Both the position numbers and the translations under genes were made by a program. A stretch of 64,000 bases of DNA, taken from Bifidobacterium italicum (lineage in GTDB: Bacteria; Actinomycetota; Actinomycetes; Actinomycetales; Bifidobacteriaceae). This document shows, piece after piece, positions 25,968-34,742 of the stretch. The stretch is from NCBI RefSeq assembly GCF_002286915.1, contig NZ_MVOG01000008.1, forward strand, positions 1 to 64,000, written 5' to 3'. The notes under the pieces are model-generated. The model searched no databases. It saw only the letters and a list, made by a program, of their open reading frames with translations, and was not told where the DNA came from. Position 1 is the first letter of the stretch, and each line of letters opens with the position of its first letter.

Positions 25968-28900
25968 TCACCCGCCCATCGTGACGCGGTTCATACGGAT
26001 CGCACAGCCTGCGGCACCGAAGAGGAACACGATCGCAAGCGCAAGCGTGATCATGCCCTGTTCGCGTCTGCCGCCGGTCGATGGCAGTTCGACGCCGGCC
26101 GTGTTGACGAAGGTGCCGTCGTCAACACGCGTTGTCGCCGTCAGCTTGCCGTTGCCTTCATCGGTCACCGTGATCGTGAGCGTCGCCGTATGCGTGTCGT
26201 AGTAGATGCCGCCTTGGGTCGCCGAATCGTCGATTTCGCGGACTTCGTAGACGTAGGCGCCGGCGCGGGTGAACGTGAAGGTGCCGAAGTCAATCGGCGT
26301 AACGAGGCCGCTTTCCGGTTTGCCGACGCCCACCGTGCATGTGCGCGTCTCGACATCGCAGCTGAGCGGGCTCTGCGGTGTTTCGGGCGCTTCGCCGGGG
26401 TCGCCGTCGTCGGTCGCGTCGCCGCCGGTGGCCTCGTCGTCGCCTTGCTGGACCGTCCATTGCGGCAATGTCGGCTGCGGGTCGTCGTCCGCGTATTCGG
26501 TCACGTCCTGCAGCGTGAAGCGGAACCTCCAATCGTCGTCCCAGGACGGCGCACGCAGTTCCTTCGTCAGTTCGGCCGGAGTCGCCACCTGCACCGGCTC
26601 CGGCTCGTACACGTTGACGAAGGTCGTACCGTCGATGCCGGTGACCGTCCACCCGACGCTGTACTCGCCAAGGCCGTTGTCGACGACGCTGAAGCGCAGC
26701 TGCGCCGACTCCGCGTACTGCAGACCGTCGATCGTCTTGCCGGCGTTGGCTTCGGTGACCGTATAGACATAGGTGCCCGGCTTGCTGAACGTGAAGTCGC
26801 CGAATCCGAAGCCGTTGGCGTTGTCTTTCGTCACCGTCACCTCATGGGTCTGCGGCATGGCCGCGCCGAGCGTCGTTTCATCGACGGAGGAGGAGTCCTT
26901 ATCGACGGCGAGCGCGAACGTGAAGGACTCGCCGTCCTTCCAGTCGCGGCCCTGCAGCGCCTTCATGAACGTGACGGACTGCGTCGTCGGCTCGATCTTG
27001 TAATGGTTCGTGAACGCCGCGACCGTAGTGGCTGCATCATCGACGGTCGTCGTCGCCTCGAGCGTGCCCTTGCCGGTGTCGCTGACGGCGATGCACGCCT
27101 TGTGCACGGCGGTGTCGTAGGTCACGCCTTGGAAGACGGGTCCGCCGTCCGGTCCGGGCATCGCGGCAGACGGGACGATTTCGGCGATCTCGTAGCAGTA
27201 GGTCTTGCCGGCGTCCTCCTTCGTGAAGGTCAGTCCGCCGAGCAATGTGCCGTTGACCGGCCAGACGAGCGCCTGACCTGCCGGAGCTGTGTAGGGGTTC
27301 GAGGTCCGTCCCGCGCCTTCCGGAAGCGGGGCATCGCCGATCGGCGTGATGCCGAACGGGAACTCGCCTGCGCGCATCGCGCGTCCGGTCAATGTCTTGC
27401 TGATGCGCAGCGCGCCGACGTCGCCGTAGTCGAGCGGTTCAACGGCGTAGCTGTTCGTGAACAGCTTCGTCGATTCGTCGGAGCCCAGCGTCGCCTGCAG
27501 CGTGCCCTGCTCGTCCGTGACGACGACGGTCACCGTGTGCCGGTGCGTGTCGTAGGTCCAGCCTTCGGCCGTCGGCTGCAATGTGTCCGGCAGCACCGTC
27601 TCCGGCAGCTGTTCGTTGATCGTGAACGTATAGGTGCCCGGCTTCGTGAAGGTCAACTTCGGGAACGTCACATCGCCGGTGGCGTCCTTGGCGATCTCCG
27701 GCGTCGTGGCCGTCAGCGTACCGGCCCATGGAGCATCGTTCACCATCACGTTCGCCGCTTCGCCGGCGAGCGAGGCTTCGAACGTGAACTTGCCTTCCGC
27801 GGCGGCGCCGCCGGTGACCTTCTTCCGCACGTCCAGCTGGGCGTCAACAGGCGTCGCCTCGTAGCGGTTGCTCAGCTCGACCTGCGTGCCGCCGCCGGGA
27901 TATTCGACCGACGTGACGAGGTTAGCCTGCGCGTCGCGGCTCACCGTCACGACGACCGTGTAGTCGTTCAGGTCGTAGGTCATGCCGTCCTTCGTCGGAT
28001 TCTCGACCGTCACGCCTTCGGGGACGACTTCGCTGACATGGTAGGTGAACCGCTTCGGCTCGTCATCGTGGCCAAGCGCGCTGCCGGTGAACTGGAGGAC
28101 CTGCCGCCAGCTGCCGTCAAGACCGACGTTGATGATCGCGCCGCCTTCGGGCAGCTCGGGGCCGCCATCGGGATTGGCCGGATCGGCGGTGACGCGCACC
28201 TTGAACTTGCCGACCGTGTTGTTCGGGTTCGTGCCGGTGACGTCCTCGTAACGCTTGATGCCGTGGATGTCGGCCGTGGCCTTGTTGGTGCCGAGGAACC
28301 GGTTCGTGAACACGGCGACGCCGCCTTCGACGACCGGTTCGCCGTCGATATGCGCGCCGTCGTCGGTGAAGGTGTGCGTCAGCTGTCGGCTGGCGATCAT
28401 CAGATTGCCGTTCCCGTCGTCCTTGACGACGACGGTGAGCACATAGCGCGCCGCCGAATAGCGCATGTTGGGCTGCGCGTCGCCGGTATCGGTGTTGTCG
28501 GACTCCCTGATGACGTACCGATAGGTGCCCGGCACCGTGTAGACGATCGAACCGAAGGTGAACGGCACCTGGTCGTGATTGTGATATCCGCCGCTCAATG
28601 TGACGCTCGTCTGCTCGGGCATCGCGTCGGCCGGATTCGCATCACCGGCGCTGATCGTGAACGTGAAGCGGTCGTTGTCGGTGTTCCAGTCTCGACCTTC
28701 AAGCACCTTGACGCCGCTGACCGACGGCTCCTCGAGCGTGACCGGCTCGAGCGTGTAGCGGTTCACATACGGCATCGTCAGCATGCCGCCGGAAGTCACC
28801 GTTCCCGCACGCGTCGGACCATCATCGACGCTCCAGCCGGGACCGCCGGCATCCGTCTGCATACAGGTCGCCGTGACGCCGGCCGGGATGTCGTAGACGC

Positions 28901-31433
28901 TGATCGATTCGCCGTCCTTGAGCGAGAAGGTCGAGCCGTTGCCTATCTCGATGATCGTGCCGTCGCTCTTCTCGCCGCGCACGGTGCCGCTGAAGTCGGT
29001 CCCGTCCGCGTTCTTCAACGTCAACGTGAACGGGAAGGACTTGTCCGGATCGGGCGTGACGCCCTGCGGCCAGACGACGTCCTCGGTCACCGTGAGCGCA
29101 CCGGGGATCTCGATCAGCTGCAGGCCGTTGTTGCCGAGGCGCACATTGACCTGTGTATCGCGCCATTGCGGCGACGACGCGTACTTCGCGGTATTGGTCG
29201 GATTCTCCTTCTTCTCGCGCGTGTACTGGTTCGCGAGCACGGTGCGGGGAGTACCGGCCGTCGCATAGTACTGATCGGTCGCCGGGTTCTTCGATGCGGC
29301 ACGGACGGCGGCGTCGCCGGGCACCGGAACCCATTGCGTGCACGTCTTCGCCGAGCATGAGGTCACGATGCCGCTGGCCTCGTCGGTGTGCTCGCCATCC
29401 ACCATATCGGCGTAGAACACACGCTGGTAGTAGTAGGTGCCGGCGGCGTCGACCTCCTTCGCCGGAGCGTCGAGGCTCTGCGAAGCGTACAGCGGCGTGT
29501 CCTGCGTGAAATAGTAGAAGTCGTTCGTCGTCGCCGGCGTGAACACGGCGGTCGTATTGCCGTAGCCTTCGTTCGGCTGGCCGTCGTAGCGGTTCGTCAG
29601 GAAGCGGATCTTGCCGTCGGCGCCTTTGTTCGCCGCGATGTACTGGGTCATGTCGTCGTCCGGCTTCGAGACGAGCTCCCGGACTCCGTCCTTGAGCCCG
29701 ACCTCGTAGAACAGGCGCATCGGATGAGTGCGGTTGATCTGCGTCTCGACGGTGCCGTCGGCGTTGACCTTCGCCGAATACAGGCGCAACGGCAACAGTT
29801 CCTCGGGCACGTCGACGGTCACGAGATCGCCCTGACGAGCCGGCGTATAGCCTTCGGCGTCCGGCGTCGTCGTGTCGAAGCTGCGCACGGTGATAGTCAT
29901 CCTGCTCAGATCGGCGGCCTTGTAGATCTCGTTCGCTTCGACGGTGCCTTCGAAGACGTAGGTCGTCGTGTCGCCTGATGTGGTTTTCGAGACCTGCTCG
30001 AATTGCTGCCCGGCGAAGACGATGCTGTTCATGTCGAGCACATGCATGTAGTCGCCGAGCTGGTCGGTGAAGCGCACGACGCCATGCGACGAGCCGGCCG
30101 TCGTGCCGCTCGTCGTGCTCGACTGGATCGGCGACGTCGGCTTGCTTGACACCTCGTCCCAGATCGTCTCGAAAACGGTATTGAGCGATTGCGAATCAGA
30201 GGCTGTCAGATAGTAATCGGCGTCGGGGGCACGCGCGCCAAGCGCCGTATATGCTGTCGCATCCGGATAGTTGCTGGAGACGGCCTGCATGAACGCATTC
30301 GCCTTCAGTGCGTCGCTGCTGTCTGCGGTTACATCAGACACATCGATGGCAGGGTCGGCGTTATCGAAGATGCCGACGGCGTAAATCGACGCGAAGCCGT
30401 CCTTGATGGCCTTCGCCTGTGTAATCGCGTCGTTGGCGATTGTCGGATTGAATTTATCACCTTCGCTTCCCGTAGGCAAGCCATCGGTGAAGAAGATGAC
30501 GATCTGGGAGGCATCGGCGCGAGCACCCGAGGACAACATCGATTGTGCCTGCTCCAATGCCCGATCGGAGCGGGTGAGCCCAGCCGTTGTCAGCGCATCC
30601 ACTTTGGTCTTCAGCCCATCGAGGTCATCGGTCAGACTACTCTGGACGGTGACATTGGTGCCGTATGAAATCAGTCCGATGCGGTTTTTCCTATTCGGAT
30701 TGGCTACGGTTCCATTCGCCGTGATCGTCTGGTCGATGAAATGATTGACTGCGGTCTGCAACGCCGTGATCTTGAACGTATCGCGATAATACACTTGCGT
30801 ATGCTGGGGGTTGGTGTCGTTCGGGCCTGTTTTGACAGTAATGCTTCTGTTCGTGTCATCCCGGCGGCATGAGGTCCCAGCCGCGTTGCAGGTGATTCTC
30901 TGATGGTGCCCATTGGCTTTCAGGATGAACAGTTCTTTCAACTGCGTCTCAGTGAATGGCGGGTATACCTCACGGTATCCGAAACCGCTCGTCATCGAAC
31001 TGGACGTATCAAGCACGAGCACGATGTCGAGCGGCTTCGTCACGTTCGAGACGCCGGTGATCTTCTGCGCGCTTGACATCGCCGAAAGCCCGACGAGGAA
31101 CGCGTCCTTGTCGGTATGCTTCGGCGCCACACGCACTGTCTTGCCATCGTAGGTCTTGAGCTCAACGGCATCCGTCGAGACCGACTTGTCGGTCCACACT
31201 CGGCCGGTCGATCGCGGATCGGTCTGGTTGCCGATGCCCTGCTCCCACTGCGTGAATGTCGTCGGATCGGCGACGCGTTCGGCATTGCTCGCCTCCGCGC
31301 GCGTCGGCGTCATGACGATCGCCATCGTCGCGATCATCACCAGGCCGATCACGGCCGCAGCCGTTTTTTTCGTATATGTGCTCACTGAGTCGAAGAGTCG
31401 CTTCCCCCACTCGAGCACCTGCTGTCCATTCAT
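25968..31433 (-). CDS. Large LPXTG-anchored surface protein: VWA domain plus pilin isopeptide-type repeats
   Basis: A 1,821-residue secreted cell-wall protein. The signal peptide covers about residues 1-48 (basic K-R-L, hydrophobic core, cut near T-R-A-E-A-S). A von Willebrand A domain (about 120-400) carries the metal motif D-T-S-S-S at 142-146. A central region of about 400-850 is unassigned. From about 870 to 1780 there are about six ~120-150-residue repeats of the FctA/Spy0128 streptococcal-pilin type (F-T-F-x-x-P-G-T-Y-x-Y-x-V-x-E and V-T-V-T-D-x-G-x-G patterns). The sorting signal L-P-S-T-G is at 1783-1787, followed by a hydrophobic segment and short tail. It probably mediates adhesion or forms a fimbria tip or shaft. 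No sortase gene is nearby. ATG at 31433 has AAAGG upstream. A 14-base G tract lies 50 nt before it. Confidence 0.9.
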   Translation of the reverse strand: MNGQQVLEWGKRLFDSVSTYTKKTAAAVIGLVMIATMAIVMTPTRAEASNAERVADPTTFTQWEQGIGNQTDPRSTGRVWTDKSVSTDAVELKTYDGKTVRVAPKHTDKDAFLVGLSAMSSAQKITGVSNVTKPLDIVLVLDTSSSMTSGFGYREVYPPFTETQLKELFILKANGHHQRITCNAAGTSCRRDDTNRSITVKTGPNDTNPQHTQVYYRDTFKITALQTAVNHFIDQTITANGTVANPNRKNRIGLISYGTNVTVQSSLTDDLDGLKTKVDALTTAGLTRSDRALEQAQSMLSSGARADASQIVIFFTDGLPTGSEGDKFNPTIANDAITQAKAIKDGFASIYAVGIFDNADPAIDVSDVTADSSDALKANAFMQAVSSNYPDATAYTALGARAPDADYYLTASDSQSLNTVFETIWDEVSSKPTSPIQSSTTSGTTAGSSHGVVRFTDQLGDYMHVLDMNSIVFAGQQFEQVSKTTSGDTTTYVFEGTVEANEIYKAADLSRMTITVRSFDTTTPDAEGYTPARQGDLVTVDVPEELLPLRLYSAKVNADGTVETQINRTHPMRLFYEVGLKDGVRELVSKPDDDMTQYIAANKGADGKIRFLTNRYDGQPNEGYGNTTAVFTPATTNDFYYFTQDTPLYASQSLDAPAKEVDAAGTYYYQRVFYADMVDGEHTDEASGIVTSCSAKTCTQWVPVPGDAAVRAASKNPATDQYYATAGTPRTVLANQYTREKKENPTNTAKYASSPQWRDTQVNVRLGNNGLQLIEIPGALTVTEDVVWPQGVTPDPDKSFPFTLTLKNADGTDFSGTVRGEKSDGTIIEIGNGSTFSLKDGESISVYDIPAGVTATCMQTDAGGPGWSVDDGPTRAGTVTSGGMLTMPYVNRYTLEPVTLEEPSVSGVKVLEGRDWNTDNDRFTFTISAGDANPADAMPEQTSVTLSGGYHNHDQVPFTFGSIVYTVPGTYRYVIRESDNTDTGDAQPNMRYSAARYVLTVVVKDDGNGNLMIASRQLTHTFTDDGAHIDGEPVVEGGVAVFTNRFLGTNKATADIHGIKRYEDVTGTNPNNTVGKFKVRVTADPANPDGGPELPEGGAIINVGLDGSWRQVLQFTGSALGHDDEPKRFTYHVSEVVPEGVTVENPTKDGMTYDLNDYTVVVTVSRDAQANLVTSVEYPGGGTQVELSNRYEATPVDAQLDVRKKVTGGAAAEGKFTFEASLAGEAANVMVNDAPWAGTLTATTPEIAKDATGDVTFPKLTFTKPGTYTFTINEQLPETVLPDTLQPTAEGWTYDTHRHTVTVVVTDEQGTLQATLGSDESTKLFTNSYAVEPLDYGDVGALRISKTLTGRAMRAGEFPFGITPIGDAPLPEGAGRTSNPYTAPAGQALVWPVNGTLLGGLTFTKEDAGKTYCYEIAEIVPSAAMPGPDGGPVFQGVTYDTAVHKACIAVSDTGKGTLEATTTVDDAATTVAAFTNHYKIEPTTQSVTFMKALQGRDWKDGESFTFALAVDKDSSSVDETTLGAAMPQTHEVTVTKDNANGFGFGDFTFSKPGTYVYTVTEANAGKTIDGLQYAESAQLRFSVVDNGLGEYSVGWTVTGIDGTTFVNVYEPEPVQVATPAELTKELRAPSWDDDWRFRFTLQDVTEYADDDPQPTLPQWTVQQGDDEATGGDATDDGDPGEAPETPQSPLSCDVETRTCTVGVGKPESGLVTPIDFGTFTFTRAGAYVYEVREIDDSATQGGIYYDTHTATLTITVTDEGNGKLTATTRVDDGTFVNTAGVELPSTGGRREQGMITLALAIVFLFGAAGCAIRMNRVTMGG

Positions 31434-31483
31434 CACAGTGCCTTTGTCTCGGTTTTCCCCCTGTGGACAGAAGCGCAAATGAG

Positions 31484-31497
31484 CCCCCCCCCCCCCC
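31484..31497 (-). repeat. 14-base homopolymeric G tract upstream of surface protein gene
   Basis: Fourteen consecutive Cs on the + strand, so Gs in the direction of the surface-protein gene. The tract ends 50 nt before its ATG. Such tracts change length during replication. A frame that runs through the tract ends, at the present length, in a TGA overlapping the ATG (TGATG). At 15 or 12 Gs that frame would fuse to the gene. Confidence 0.85.
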
Positions 31498-31795
31498 GCA
31501 GGAAATCAGGATCCGGACACCGCGGATGCAATCCCTACTTCATCAGCGAGGTTCCGGTTTTACCTTTCAGCATACACGCTATCAGCAGAATCGCGGGGCG
31601 TCGATGGCGTCTCAATATGTGCGCCCGCAAGCGTCCCATCCACGCATGCACAGCGCGATCGCGCCGCTGTTGCCACATACCATCGCGCAAAGAACCATGG
31701 AAACGCACATCCGCCATCGGCAATTTCCCCAATGTTTTCACAAACGACGGCACCCCATCGGCGTGTCGCAACCTGCATCTGCCGATCCGTCCGAC
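31498..31795. other. Gap between recG and the G tract, no clear gene
   Basis: About 300 bp of somewhat lower GC than the flanks. It should hold the promoter of the surface-protein gene, though no clear -35/-10 pair was found. A 78-codon minus-strand frame (31535-31771) has no recognisable features. Confidence 0.35.
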
Positions 31796-34207
31796 TCAGT
31801 TGCTCGTCAGGAACTTCTCGTTGCCGCGCGTGAAATCGAGGACGGCGCCGGCGAGCTGCACATGCCCGTCGAGCGTCGGATCGGCGTCAAGCACGGCCTG
31901 TGCACGTTCGCGCGCATCGGCGATCATCGGCGCATCCTTGACGACGCGCAGCAGCCTGAGGCTCGACTTGCCGCCCGACTGCGCGTCGCCCAGCACGTCG
32001 CCGGCGCCGCGCAATTCGAGGTCCTTGGCGGCGATGTCGGCGCCGTCGAGCGAATCGGCGATGACCTGCAGCCGTTCCTCGGCGATCGACGCCGGCTCGG
32101 CCCGCGAAACGAGGAACGCCCACGCGTCGGTGCCGCCTCGGCCGACGCGTCCGCGCAGCTGATGCAGCTGCGACAGGCCGTAGCGGTCGGCGTCGAAGAT
32201 GACGATGCAGCTCGCCTGCGGCACATCGACGCCGACCTCGATGACGGTCGTCGCGACCATGACCGGCGTCGCGCCGCTCGCGAACCCCTCCATGACATGC
32301 TGCTTCGTCTTGTCGTCGTCACGCCCGGTGAGCGTGCAGATCGCGACGCCGCGGAACTGCGGCAGCGACTGCAATCGTTCGCGGATCTCCTCCACCGAAC
32401 GCAGCGGCGGACGCGGATGGTCGGCTTCGTCGCCGAGCTCGACGACCTGCATGTCGTCGTCGGCGGAGGTCGCACCGTCGTCCTCCGGCACGTCGATGCG
32501 CGGGCAGACGACGTACGCGCGCTCACCGGCGTCGACGCGCGCGCGCAGATGCCAGAACATGTCGGACATCAGCTTGCCGTCGTCCTCCGGCACGATGAAC
32601 GTGCGGATCGGACGGCGGCCGCCCGGCAGTTCGGTCAGCCATGAGATGTCGAGGTCGCCGAACCACGTCATCGCCGCCGTGCGCGGGATCGGCGTCGCCG
32701 TCATGACGAGCAGATGCGGATCGCGCTCCGACTTGCCGCGCAACGTGTCGCGCTGCTCGACGCCGAAGCGGTGCTGCTCGTCGATGACGGCGAGCGCGAG
32801 GTTCGGCGTCTGGAACGACTTCGAGAACGCGGCGTGCGTCGCGACGACGATGCACGGCTCGCCGCTCGCGGCCTTCGCGAGGACGCGGCGGCGCGCGGCG
32901 AGCTTCATGCCGCCGGTGAGCAGCAGCACCGGCACGTCGGCGTCCAATGCGCCGACCGATGCGGCGATCGATTGGTAATGCTGTTCGGCGAGCACCTGCG
33001 TCGGCGCGACGAGCACGGCCTGATGCCCCGAGCCGACGGCCTGCAGCATCGCGGCGACGGCGACGACGGTCTTGCCGGAGCCGACCTCGCCCTGCAGCAG
33101 CCGCTGCATCGGGTGGTCGGCGCGCATGTCATCGCCGATTTGGTCGATGACGGCGCGCTGGCCGTGGGTCAGCGGGAACGGCAGCGTGGCGATGTAGTCG
33201 TCGCGCAACGTGACGTCGCCGCAGGGGAAGGCCTCGCTCGCGCTCGCCGCGTCGCGCGCCATCAGCAGCGCGCACTGGCAGACGAAGGCCTCCTCGTAGC
33301 GCATCGTCCGGATCGCATGGCGGAAGTCGGCGACGGCGTCGGGGTCGTGGATCGCGCAGAAGGCCTGCGCGCGGTGCATCAGATTGAGTTCGGCGCGCAC
33401 CTGTTCCGGCAGCACGTCCGGAATCGCCTTTTCGAGCGCGGCGCGCACGGATTCGCCGTCGTCCCACAGCGAGCGCGCCGGGGCGTCGTCGGAAGGTTCG
33501 GCGGCGGACTGCGGCTCCTCGCCGGCGAGCATATGCAGCAGCATCAGGATCGTCTCGTGGATGTGTTCGCTCGAGATACGCGAGTTCGCATGGTAGACAG
33601 GGCGCGGACGGCAGACGCGGGCGAGGCCCTGCGCGACGGAGTCGACGTCGTATTTGAGCGTGCGGGCGGGCGTGTTGCGCGGACGGCCGGCGGCGCGCGC
33701 GGCGGCGGGATCGTCGAAGGCGAGCTGCGCCGGCGCGGGCGGCGGCGTGTCGGGGGCGACGGTCAGGATCTCGGGATGCGTGAACTGCAGGCGGTCGTTG
33801 AACACGCTCGGATCGCCGGCGATGACGATGCGCATGCCGGTGGCCAGCCGTGACGCCATCCAGTCGATATACGACTTGCGGTGGGCGAAGAAGACGAGGT
33901 TCGCGGCGGCGGGGCGCAGCCCGTGGTCGCGCGCGTAGTCGGCGTCGTCAACGAGCACCTCGAGGCGGTAGGAGCCGCGCGAGCTCATCGGCGCGACGCG
34001 CACGCCGCGCACGACGACCGGGCAGGCCATCTTCTCGCCGAAGCGCACGTCGCTGAGCGCGCGCACCGGCACCGGCTCGGTCACGCGGAACGGATAGTAG
34101 CTGAGCGCCTCGCCGACCGTCGTGACGCCGAGCGCCTTGAGCGCGCTGACGCGCCGCTTGTTCGTCAGCAACGACGCCAGCGGTGATTCCACGGTCACGG
34201 TACTCAT
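31796..34207 (-). CDS. recG: ATP-dependent DNA helicase RecG
   Basis: RecG remodels stalled replication forks and Holliday junctions. The 803-residue product has an N-terminal OB/wedge domain, Walker A G-E-V-G-S-G-K-T (about residue 374), A-V-I-D-E-Q-H-R-F-G (DEQH box), M-T-A-T-P-I-P-R-T and the C-terminal Q-L-R-G-R-V-G-R-G. An insert rich in Ala and Asp falls before the helicase core. The ATG at 34207 gives the family N-terminus, and GACAAT on the minus strand (34216-34221) lies 8 nt upstream, a near-leaderless arrangement. The frame is open much further upstream only because the 93-bp repeats contain no stops. Confidence 0.95.
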   Translation of the reverse strand: MSTVTVESPLASLLTNKRRVSALKALGVTTVGEALSYYPFRVTEPVPVRALSDVRFGEKMACPVVVRGVRVAPMSSRGSYRLEVLVDDADYARDHGLRPAAANLVFFAHRKSYIDWMASRLATGMRIVIAGDPSVFNDRLQFTHPEILTVAPDTPPPAPAQLAFDDPAAARAAGRPRNTPARTLKYDVDSVAQGLARVCRPRPVYHANSRISSEHIHETILMLLHMLAGEEPQSAAEPSDDAPARSLWDDGESVRAALEKAIPDVLPEQVRAELNLMHRAQAFCAIHDPDAVADFRHAIRTMRYEEAFVCQCALLMARDAASASEAFPCGDVTLRDDYIATLPFPLTHGQRAVIDQIGDDMRADHPMQRLLQGEVGSGKTVVAVAAMLQAVGSGHQAVLVAPTQVLAEQHYQSIAASVGALDADVPVLLLTGGMKLAARRRVLAKAASGEPCIVVATHAAFSKSFQTPNLALAVIDEQHRFGVEQRDTLRGKSERDPHLLVMTATPIPRTAAMTWFGDLDISWLTELPGGRRPIRTFIVPEDDGKLMSDMFWHLRARVDAGERAYVVCPRIDVPEDDGATSADDDMQVVELGDEADHPRPPLRSVEEIRERLQSLPQFRGVAICTLTGRDDDKTKQHVMEGFASGATPVMVATTVIEVGVDVPQASCIVIFDADRYGLSQLHQLRGRVGRGGTDAWAFLVSRAEPASIAEERLQVIADSLDGADIAAKDLELRGAGDVLGDAQSGGKSSLRLLRVVKDAPMIADARERAQAVLDADPTLDGHVQLAGAVLDFTRGNEKFLTSN

Positions 34208-34310
34208 AGTCCCCCATTGTCGCACGCGCGCGGACGAGGCGCCACGGCGCGTCCCGCCGGGTCCGATTCCGGGCCAATCCGTCGACGCACCCGACGGATC
34301 CACCCGGAAA

Positions 34311-34742
34311 CCAGCCACTTTCCGGGCCGAGCCATCGACCCGGCCGACGGAACGGGCCGCGGCGTCCCAAACCGTCGAGGACGCCGACGAACCATCCCGC
34401 CGACCAGCCACTTTCCGGGCCGAACCATCGACGCACCCGACGGAACGGGCCGCGGCGTCCCAAACCGTCGAGCGGACCGACGAACACACCCGCGAACCGG
34501 CGCCTTTCCGTCCCGAACCATCGACACGGCCGCCGAACCCACCTGCAGCGTCCCGATCCGTCGAGGACGCCGACGAACCATCCCGCCGACCAGCCACTTT
34601 CCGGGCCGAACCATCGACCCGGCCGACGAACCCACCTGCAGCGTCCCAAACCGTCGAGGACGCCGACGAACCATCCCGCCGACCAGCCACTTTCCGGGCC
34701 GAACCATCGACCCGGCCGACGATCCCACCCGCGACGGCGGCC
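34311..34742. repeat. 93-bp tandem repeat array between recG and rpmB
   Basis: Four full units start at 34311, 34404, 34497 and 34590, exactly 93 bp apart. A partial fifth starts at 34683 and a degenerate partial unit precedes the first (about 34265-34310). Each opens with CCAGCCACTTTCCGGGCCGA (third unit CCGGCGCCTTTCC). Because 93 is a multiple of three and units lack stops, several frames stay open with a 31-residue repeat, for example P-A-T-F-R-A-E-P-S-T on the + strand. None has a credible start. The 696-bp gap 34208-34903 also contains the rpmB terminator. Probably a non-coding minisatellite. Confidence 0.85.

Follow-up and report, generated by a model that had tools for sequence, protein, structure and literature searches.

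A G14 tract in the predicted 5' leader of a solitary adhesin-type gene of Bifidobacterium italicum: a plausible contingency element

Results

The surface-protein gene and its neighbours

In the window (the whole 64-kb stretch of B. italicum DNA that we analysed), the minus strand encodes, between positions 25968 and 31433, a secreted LPSTG surface protein of 1,821 amino acids, which was recognised from its translation, its Pfam domains and its orthologues. The N terminus is signal-peptide-like and the C terminus carries LPSTGG, a hydrophobic stretch and a basic tail, in agreement with an earlier note on this DNA that had placed a large LPXTG protein after the tract described below. The Pfam domains are a VWA domain with a DTSSS MIDAS-like motif, DUF7601 and six FctA domains (Spy0128-like isopeptide), and the relatives with solved structures, which match weakly, are pilus proteins. 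Among named organisms, the closest orthologues belong to B. choerinum (76% identity over the best segment) and B. cuniculi (61%).

Upstream of it and similarly oriented is recG (31796 to 34690, minus strand; Pfam RecG_dom3_C, with a gene end conserved in relatives), which is likewise the immediate upstream gene in B. choerinum, in B. cuniculi and in genome G018, a third relative. Downstream lies an RsmD-type methyltransferase gene. There is no sortase near the surface-protein gene, the five sortases of the genome being all on other contigs, and with such neighbours a pilus-sortase operon was ruled out. Because none of the five is on its contig, the surface protein is, as judged from gene context, a solitary anchored protein of the adhesin type, and its gene does not open a pilus-sortase cluster.

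The G tract and its origin

On the minus strand, positions 31497 to 31484 form a run of 14 Gs (G14), as read directly from the window and compared with the same site in B. choerinum. The distance from its last G to the A of the ATG at 31433 is exactly 50 nt; the earlier note, whose span of 31433-31500 comprised the tract and this spacer, had given the run, its strand and its distance from the ATG exactly. The sequence around the tract reads, on the minus strand, GATTTCCTGC-G14-CTCATTTGCGC. No other run of G or C longer than 6 occurs in the window. From dinucleotide frequencies, runs of at least 14 are expected 9e-5 times per window and 0.003 times per genome, and a scan for G9 in the window returned 6 overlapping matches, all within the G14 run, against 0.14 expected. 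A chance run was thus ruled out, and in its length the homopolymer resembles those of simple-sequence phase-variable loci.

In the orthologous leader of B. choerinum the site of the tract reads GGGTGGGG, and the flanks match on both sides, with TTTCCTGC conserved 5' of the site and TGTCCACAG 3' of it. Genome G018 has a G6 aligned at this place and B. cuniculi a gap, and a homopolymer at the tract site was found in none of the orthologues aligned (B. choerinum, B. cuniculi, G018), so that any switch operating here would not be a conserved one. Since the flanks match the B. choerinum leader, this alignment indicates that G14 is a lineage-specific expansion within a leader already rich in G.

The tract comes from a 2.28-Mb draft assembly of 72 contigs, in which the exact count of 14 Gs is uncertain. 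Alternating poly-G and poly-C junk occurs within the first 60 bases of three contigs (at the start of C1 and C8, near the start of C6) and is probably a sequencing or assembly artefact. Together with the warning that G-tract lengths in databases may differ from measured ones (PMC9187656), this makes the exact length of 14 less safe, and one may suppose that the run is real and its length in part a product of the assembly, the strain having another length or a mixture of lengths. We consider this unlikely, since the tract is internal to its contig and both of its flanks match the B. choerinum leader, which argues against a misassembly.

Promoter and leader

The alignment of four leaders from recG to the adhesin gene, taken together with a scan for TANNNT, predicts a -10 element, TATGCT, at 31569 to 31574 on the minus strand. 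It is aligned with TATGCT, TATACT and TAAACT in the three relatives (B. choerinum, B. cuniculi, G018), and the block shared by the four leaders ends in GCTGATAGC(G/A)TGTATGCT. Between recG and the ATG the only TANNNT hexamers are TAGCGT (31581) and TATGCT (31574), both upstream of the tract and about 75 nt away (31581-31569); no clear -35 element could be recognised for the predicted promoter. From the position of the -10 element, transcription would start near 31562, giving a predicted 5' untranslated leader of about 129 nt (31434 to 31562, minus strand) in which the tract would occupy about +66 to +79. A Shine-Dalgarno-like AAAGG lies at 31441 to 31445 (minus strand), 7 nt before the ATG, and the start of the gene including this motif, AAAGGCACTGTGATG, is identical in B. 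choerinum. Searching the leader against Rfam returned no credible family.

As the -10-like hexamers lie upstream of the tract, and as there is no TA dinucleotide between the tract and the ATG, the tract would be part of the leader and not of a promoter spacer; a sigma-70-type -10 element at or after the tract is not likely. A switch in which the tract separates the -35 from the -10, with promoter strength depending on tract length, would have company in the genus, where, by hand count in 112 genomes, G9 immediately before TANNNT outnumbers the reversed pattern about threefold (about 147 sites against 48), where runs of G9 or more precede TATAGT in genomes G036 and G108, and where such tracts are mentioned in B. 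breve (PMC9187656). In B. italicum, however, the genome has no G9-TANNNT site and the 70 nt preceding the tract contain no TANNNT, and with no -10-like hexamer after the tract either, promoter spacing was rejected on motif grounds; we take it to be extremely unlikely. The G9-TANNNT sites of the genus, which are concentrated in small genomes (for example G036, G057 and G104-G109), are themselves probably promoter-spacer switches, going by their motifs. The G036 and G108 examples concern related genes for secreted proteins, in which G12 and G11 abut TATAGT, an arrangement that a phase-variable promoter would be expected to show.

The reading frame through the tract

A frame that starts at a TTG (31531) passes through the tract and ends in a TGA overlapping the ATG (31434 to 31531, minus strand). 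The earlier note had described its behaviour, and the frames are exact: at 14 Gs it ends in TGATG, and at 12 or 15 Gs it is in frame with the surface protein. Accordingly, the frame could control the gene through coupled restart of translation at 14 Gs and an N-terminal extension at 12 or 15. Against this, the equivalent frame in B. choerinum stops before the tract (LHPQPFMP*), the AGGGA preceding the TTG is 0-1 nt from it instead of 5-9 nt while the ATG has its own conserved and well-spaced AAAGG, and an extension would precede and bury the signal peptide. For these reasons the TTG frame is considered incidental and was not counted as a gene, control through it appears highly unlikely, and the coupled translation or fusion envisaged in the earlier note is disfavoured. 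Nor is this a tract of the intragenic frameshift kind, which joins two frames within a coding sequence, for it precedes an ATG that is conserved and has a Shine-Dalgarno motif to itself.

Folding of the leader

When the leader was folded without quadruplexes at 8-18 Gs, the predicted accessibility of the Shine-Dalgarno motif stayed between 0.59 and 0.63 and that of the start codon between 0.59 and 0.65, and the leader folded no better than its shuffles (z 0.33). Masking of the Shine-Dalgarno motif by ordinary secondary structure in a length-dependent manner was therefore set aside. A possible conserved stem, ATCCGC/GCGGGG, noticed by eye and also hinted at by the fold of the B. choerinum leader, does not appear in the minimum-energy fold of the B. 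italicum leader.

With quadruplexes allowed, the energies, which are approximate, were -65.9, -67.5, -67.7 and -69.1 kcal/mol at 11-14 Gs and -83.9 kcal/mol at 15. It is possible, according to this model, that a three-layer RNA G-quadruplex fits within the run from exactly 15 Gs, because it takes four runs of three and three one-base loops; the tract is thus one G below the length needed for a self-contained quadruplex of this kind. One may speculate that slippage by +1 would create a very stable leader and that the adhesin message would be repressed (or stabilised), which would turn expression on or off with neither a frameshift nor a promoter change. We give such a G-quadruplex length switch only a small chance. 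If length does govern expression, the leader would allow one to test cleanly whether phase switching can depend on an RNA G-quadruplex threshold.

Other G tracts in the genome and in the genus

Four internal runs of at least 11 occur in the B. italicum genome: a G14 at C9:30215, a G11 at C45:42609, a G11 at C49:9888 and the tract studied here. The C45 run lies upstream of a gene named from its sequence as glutamate-dehydrogenase-like, with C on the sense strand of the gene. The C49 run (C49:9888-9898) is on the sense strand, 35 nt before the ATG of a secreted surface protein with Rib/He_PIG repeats, for which no orthologue was found in the 112 genomes (E 1e-40). That two of the four long runs stand before surface-protein genes is suggestive, as a post hoc observation. 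The C49 G11 is preceded by CCCCC, which could pair with it. The G14 of contig C9 (C9:30215-30228) is found about 90 nt upstream of a ROK-family regulator, with C on the sense strand of the regulator and a hairpin-like repeat adjoining. The same contig has a G10 (C9:35150-35159) inside a 1,055-aa ORF for an SNF2 helicase with a full-length match to DISARM DrmD; the frame is open at 10 Gs, and slippage would switch this defence gene off.

A rival account of the tract is that it is a neutral hypermutable run, a G-rich site of the leader that slippage has enlarged, whose variation is without consequence and is tolerated because the leader is untranslated. This is supported by the expansion being seen in one lineage only, by a predicted Shine-Dalgarno accessibility that is independent of length in a leader with no structure beyond that of shuffles, and by the other tracts of the genome that adjoin unrelated genes, such as the ROK regulator and the glutamate-dehydrogenase-like gene. 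It fits less well with the fact that two of the four internal runs of at least 11 Gs stand shortly before genes for secreted surface proteins, on the sense strand, and with the measurable effect of upstream G-tracts on expression in two other bacteria (PMC7302503, PMC8295292). We regard a neutral run as a serious possibility that nonetheless falls short of probable.

In the 112 genus genomes, again counted by hand, G10 upstream of a Shine-Dalgarno-ATG combination was found in 42 genomes, compared with 22 for the reversed pattern, and of the ORFs of at least 120 aa found in this way, 9 of 25 pass a crude signal-peptide test. One such leader tract, before an ABC ATPase gene, has 10, 11, 10 and 12 Gs in genomes G052, G067, G004 and G111, with an identical 43-nt downstream flank; it follows that leader tracts in the genus do change in length, this one among four related species.

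Discussion

Our analysis suggests that G14 acts as a contingency element of the simple-sequence type, situated in the 5' untranslated leader, whose slippage would tune expression of the adhesin, a proposition to which we give even credence. It draws its plausibility from the position and exceptional length of the tract, from its leader context, from its expansion in the B. italicum lineage, from the lack of a -10 motif at or after it and from precedents in the genus. According to this proposal, replication slippage would change the length of G14, so that every length would produce its own leader RNA and, with it, its own level of adhesin, either graded or high/low, with the protein itself unaltered. 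Length could most plausibly act through the G-rich leader RNA, which may influence the elongation or stability of the transcript or the loading of ribosomes; a G-quadruplex gaining its third layer at 15 Gs, or base pairing to a C-rich partner, might mediate this. The earlier note had named three possible mechanisms, of which promoter spacing is disfavoured for want of a -10 motif at or after the tract and fusion or coupled translation fares little better, while an effect through the leader remains. Its broader suggestion of a slip-prone tract upstream of a surface-protein gene is one we share, the tract being very probably variable in length, and we infer as much from the statistical outlier that the run represents, from its lineage-specific growth out of GGGTGGGG, from the genus precedent and from a second such tract in the genome.

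In bifidobacteria, slippage of G tracts has been demonstrated for the pilus genes bbr_0113 and bbr_1889 of B. breve UCC2003, where a tract of 10-11 Gs is intragenic and joins two coding frames in the pilin gene that comes first in a pilus-sortase operon (PMC9187656); the earlier note had likewise referred to the control of sortase-dependent pili by G-tract slippage in other bifidobacteria, usually with an intragenic tract. The B. italicum locus shares with them the genus, a G tract and a gene for a sortase-anchored surface protein, and it differs in that slippage, demonstrated in B. breve, would here affect a predicted untranslated leader, with an RsmD-type methyltransferase gene next to the adhesin gene and no sortase alongside. 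A tract upstream of a gene is not unprecedented, since the survey in the same paper also admitted tracts lying as much as 500 bp before the start of a gene (PMC9187656).

By analogy, the functionally closest systems would be two from other bacteria. In Moraxella catarrhalis, a G tract upstream of uspA1 sets the mRNA level, which in one strain differs 21-fold between tracts of 10 and 12 Gs (PMC7302503). As in B. italicum, the tract precedes the ORF of a surface adhesin; the organism and the adhesin are unrelated, and the graded, high/low effect of length that was demonstrated for uspA1 would be its counterpart here only by inference. In Helicobacter pylori, a leader G-repeat of 6-16 Gs tunes the expression of tlpB via the small RNA RepG (PMC8295292). 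The variable repeat of tlpB-hp0102 is inside the mRNA leader, as predicted for G14, and acts after transcription initiation, but it depends on a dedicated small RNA and its target is a chemoreceptor/LPS operon.

The switches described for bifidobacteria in the literature cited here are frameshifts or promoter spacers, and an RNA-leader layer is not among them. If the length of G14 controls expression, a large VWA/FctA adhesin could be varied in this Bifidobacterium at the level of the RNA leader. The tract itself is real and well placed, and it is a plausible candidate for contingency control at that level.

The pilus locus of B. dentium has tracts (BDP_1874 and NCTC11816_01833 in Table 1 of PMC9187656) that were treated with the frameshift class, at a length of 13. 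They resemble G14 in lying near the start of a surface-protein gene, but are part of a pilus cluster. In genome G028 of our genus set, probably B. dentium to judge from the coordinates, a G15 (C1, about 2144869-2144883) ends 37 nt before the ATG of a secreted-protein gene, and it lies close to the coordinates of the B. dentium pilus tract for which the table gives 13 Gs (PMC9187656).
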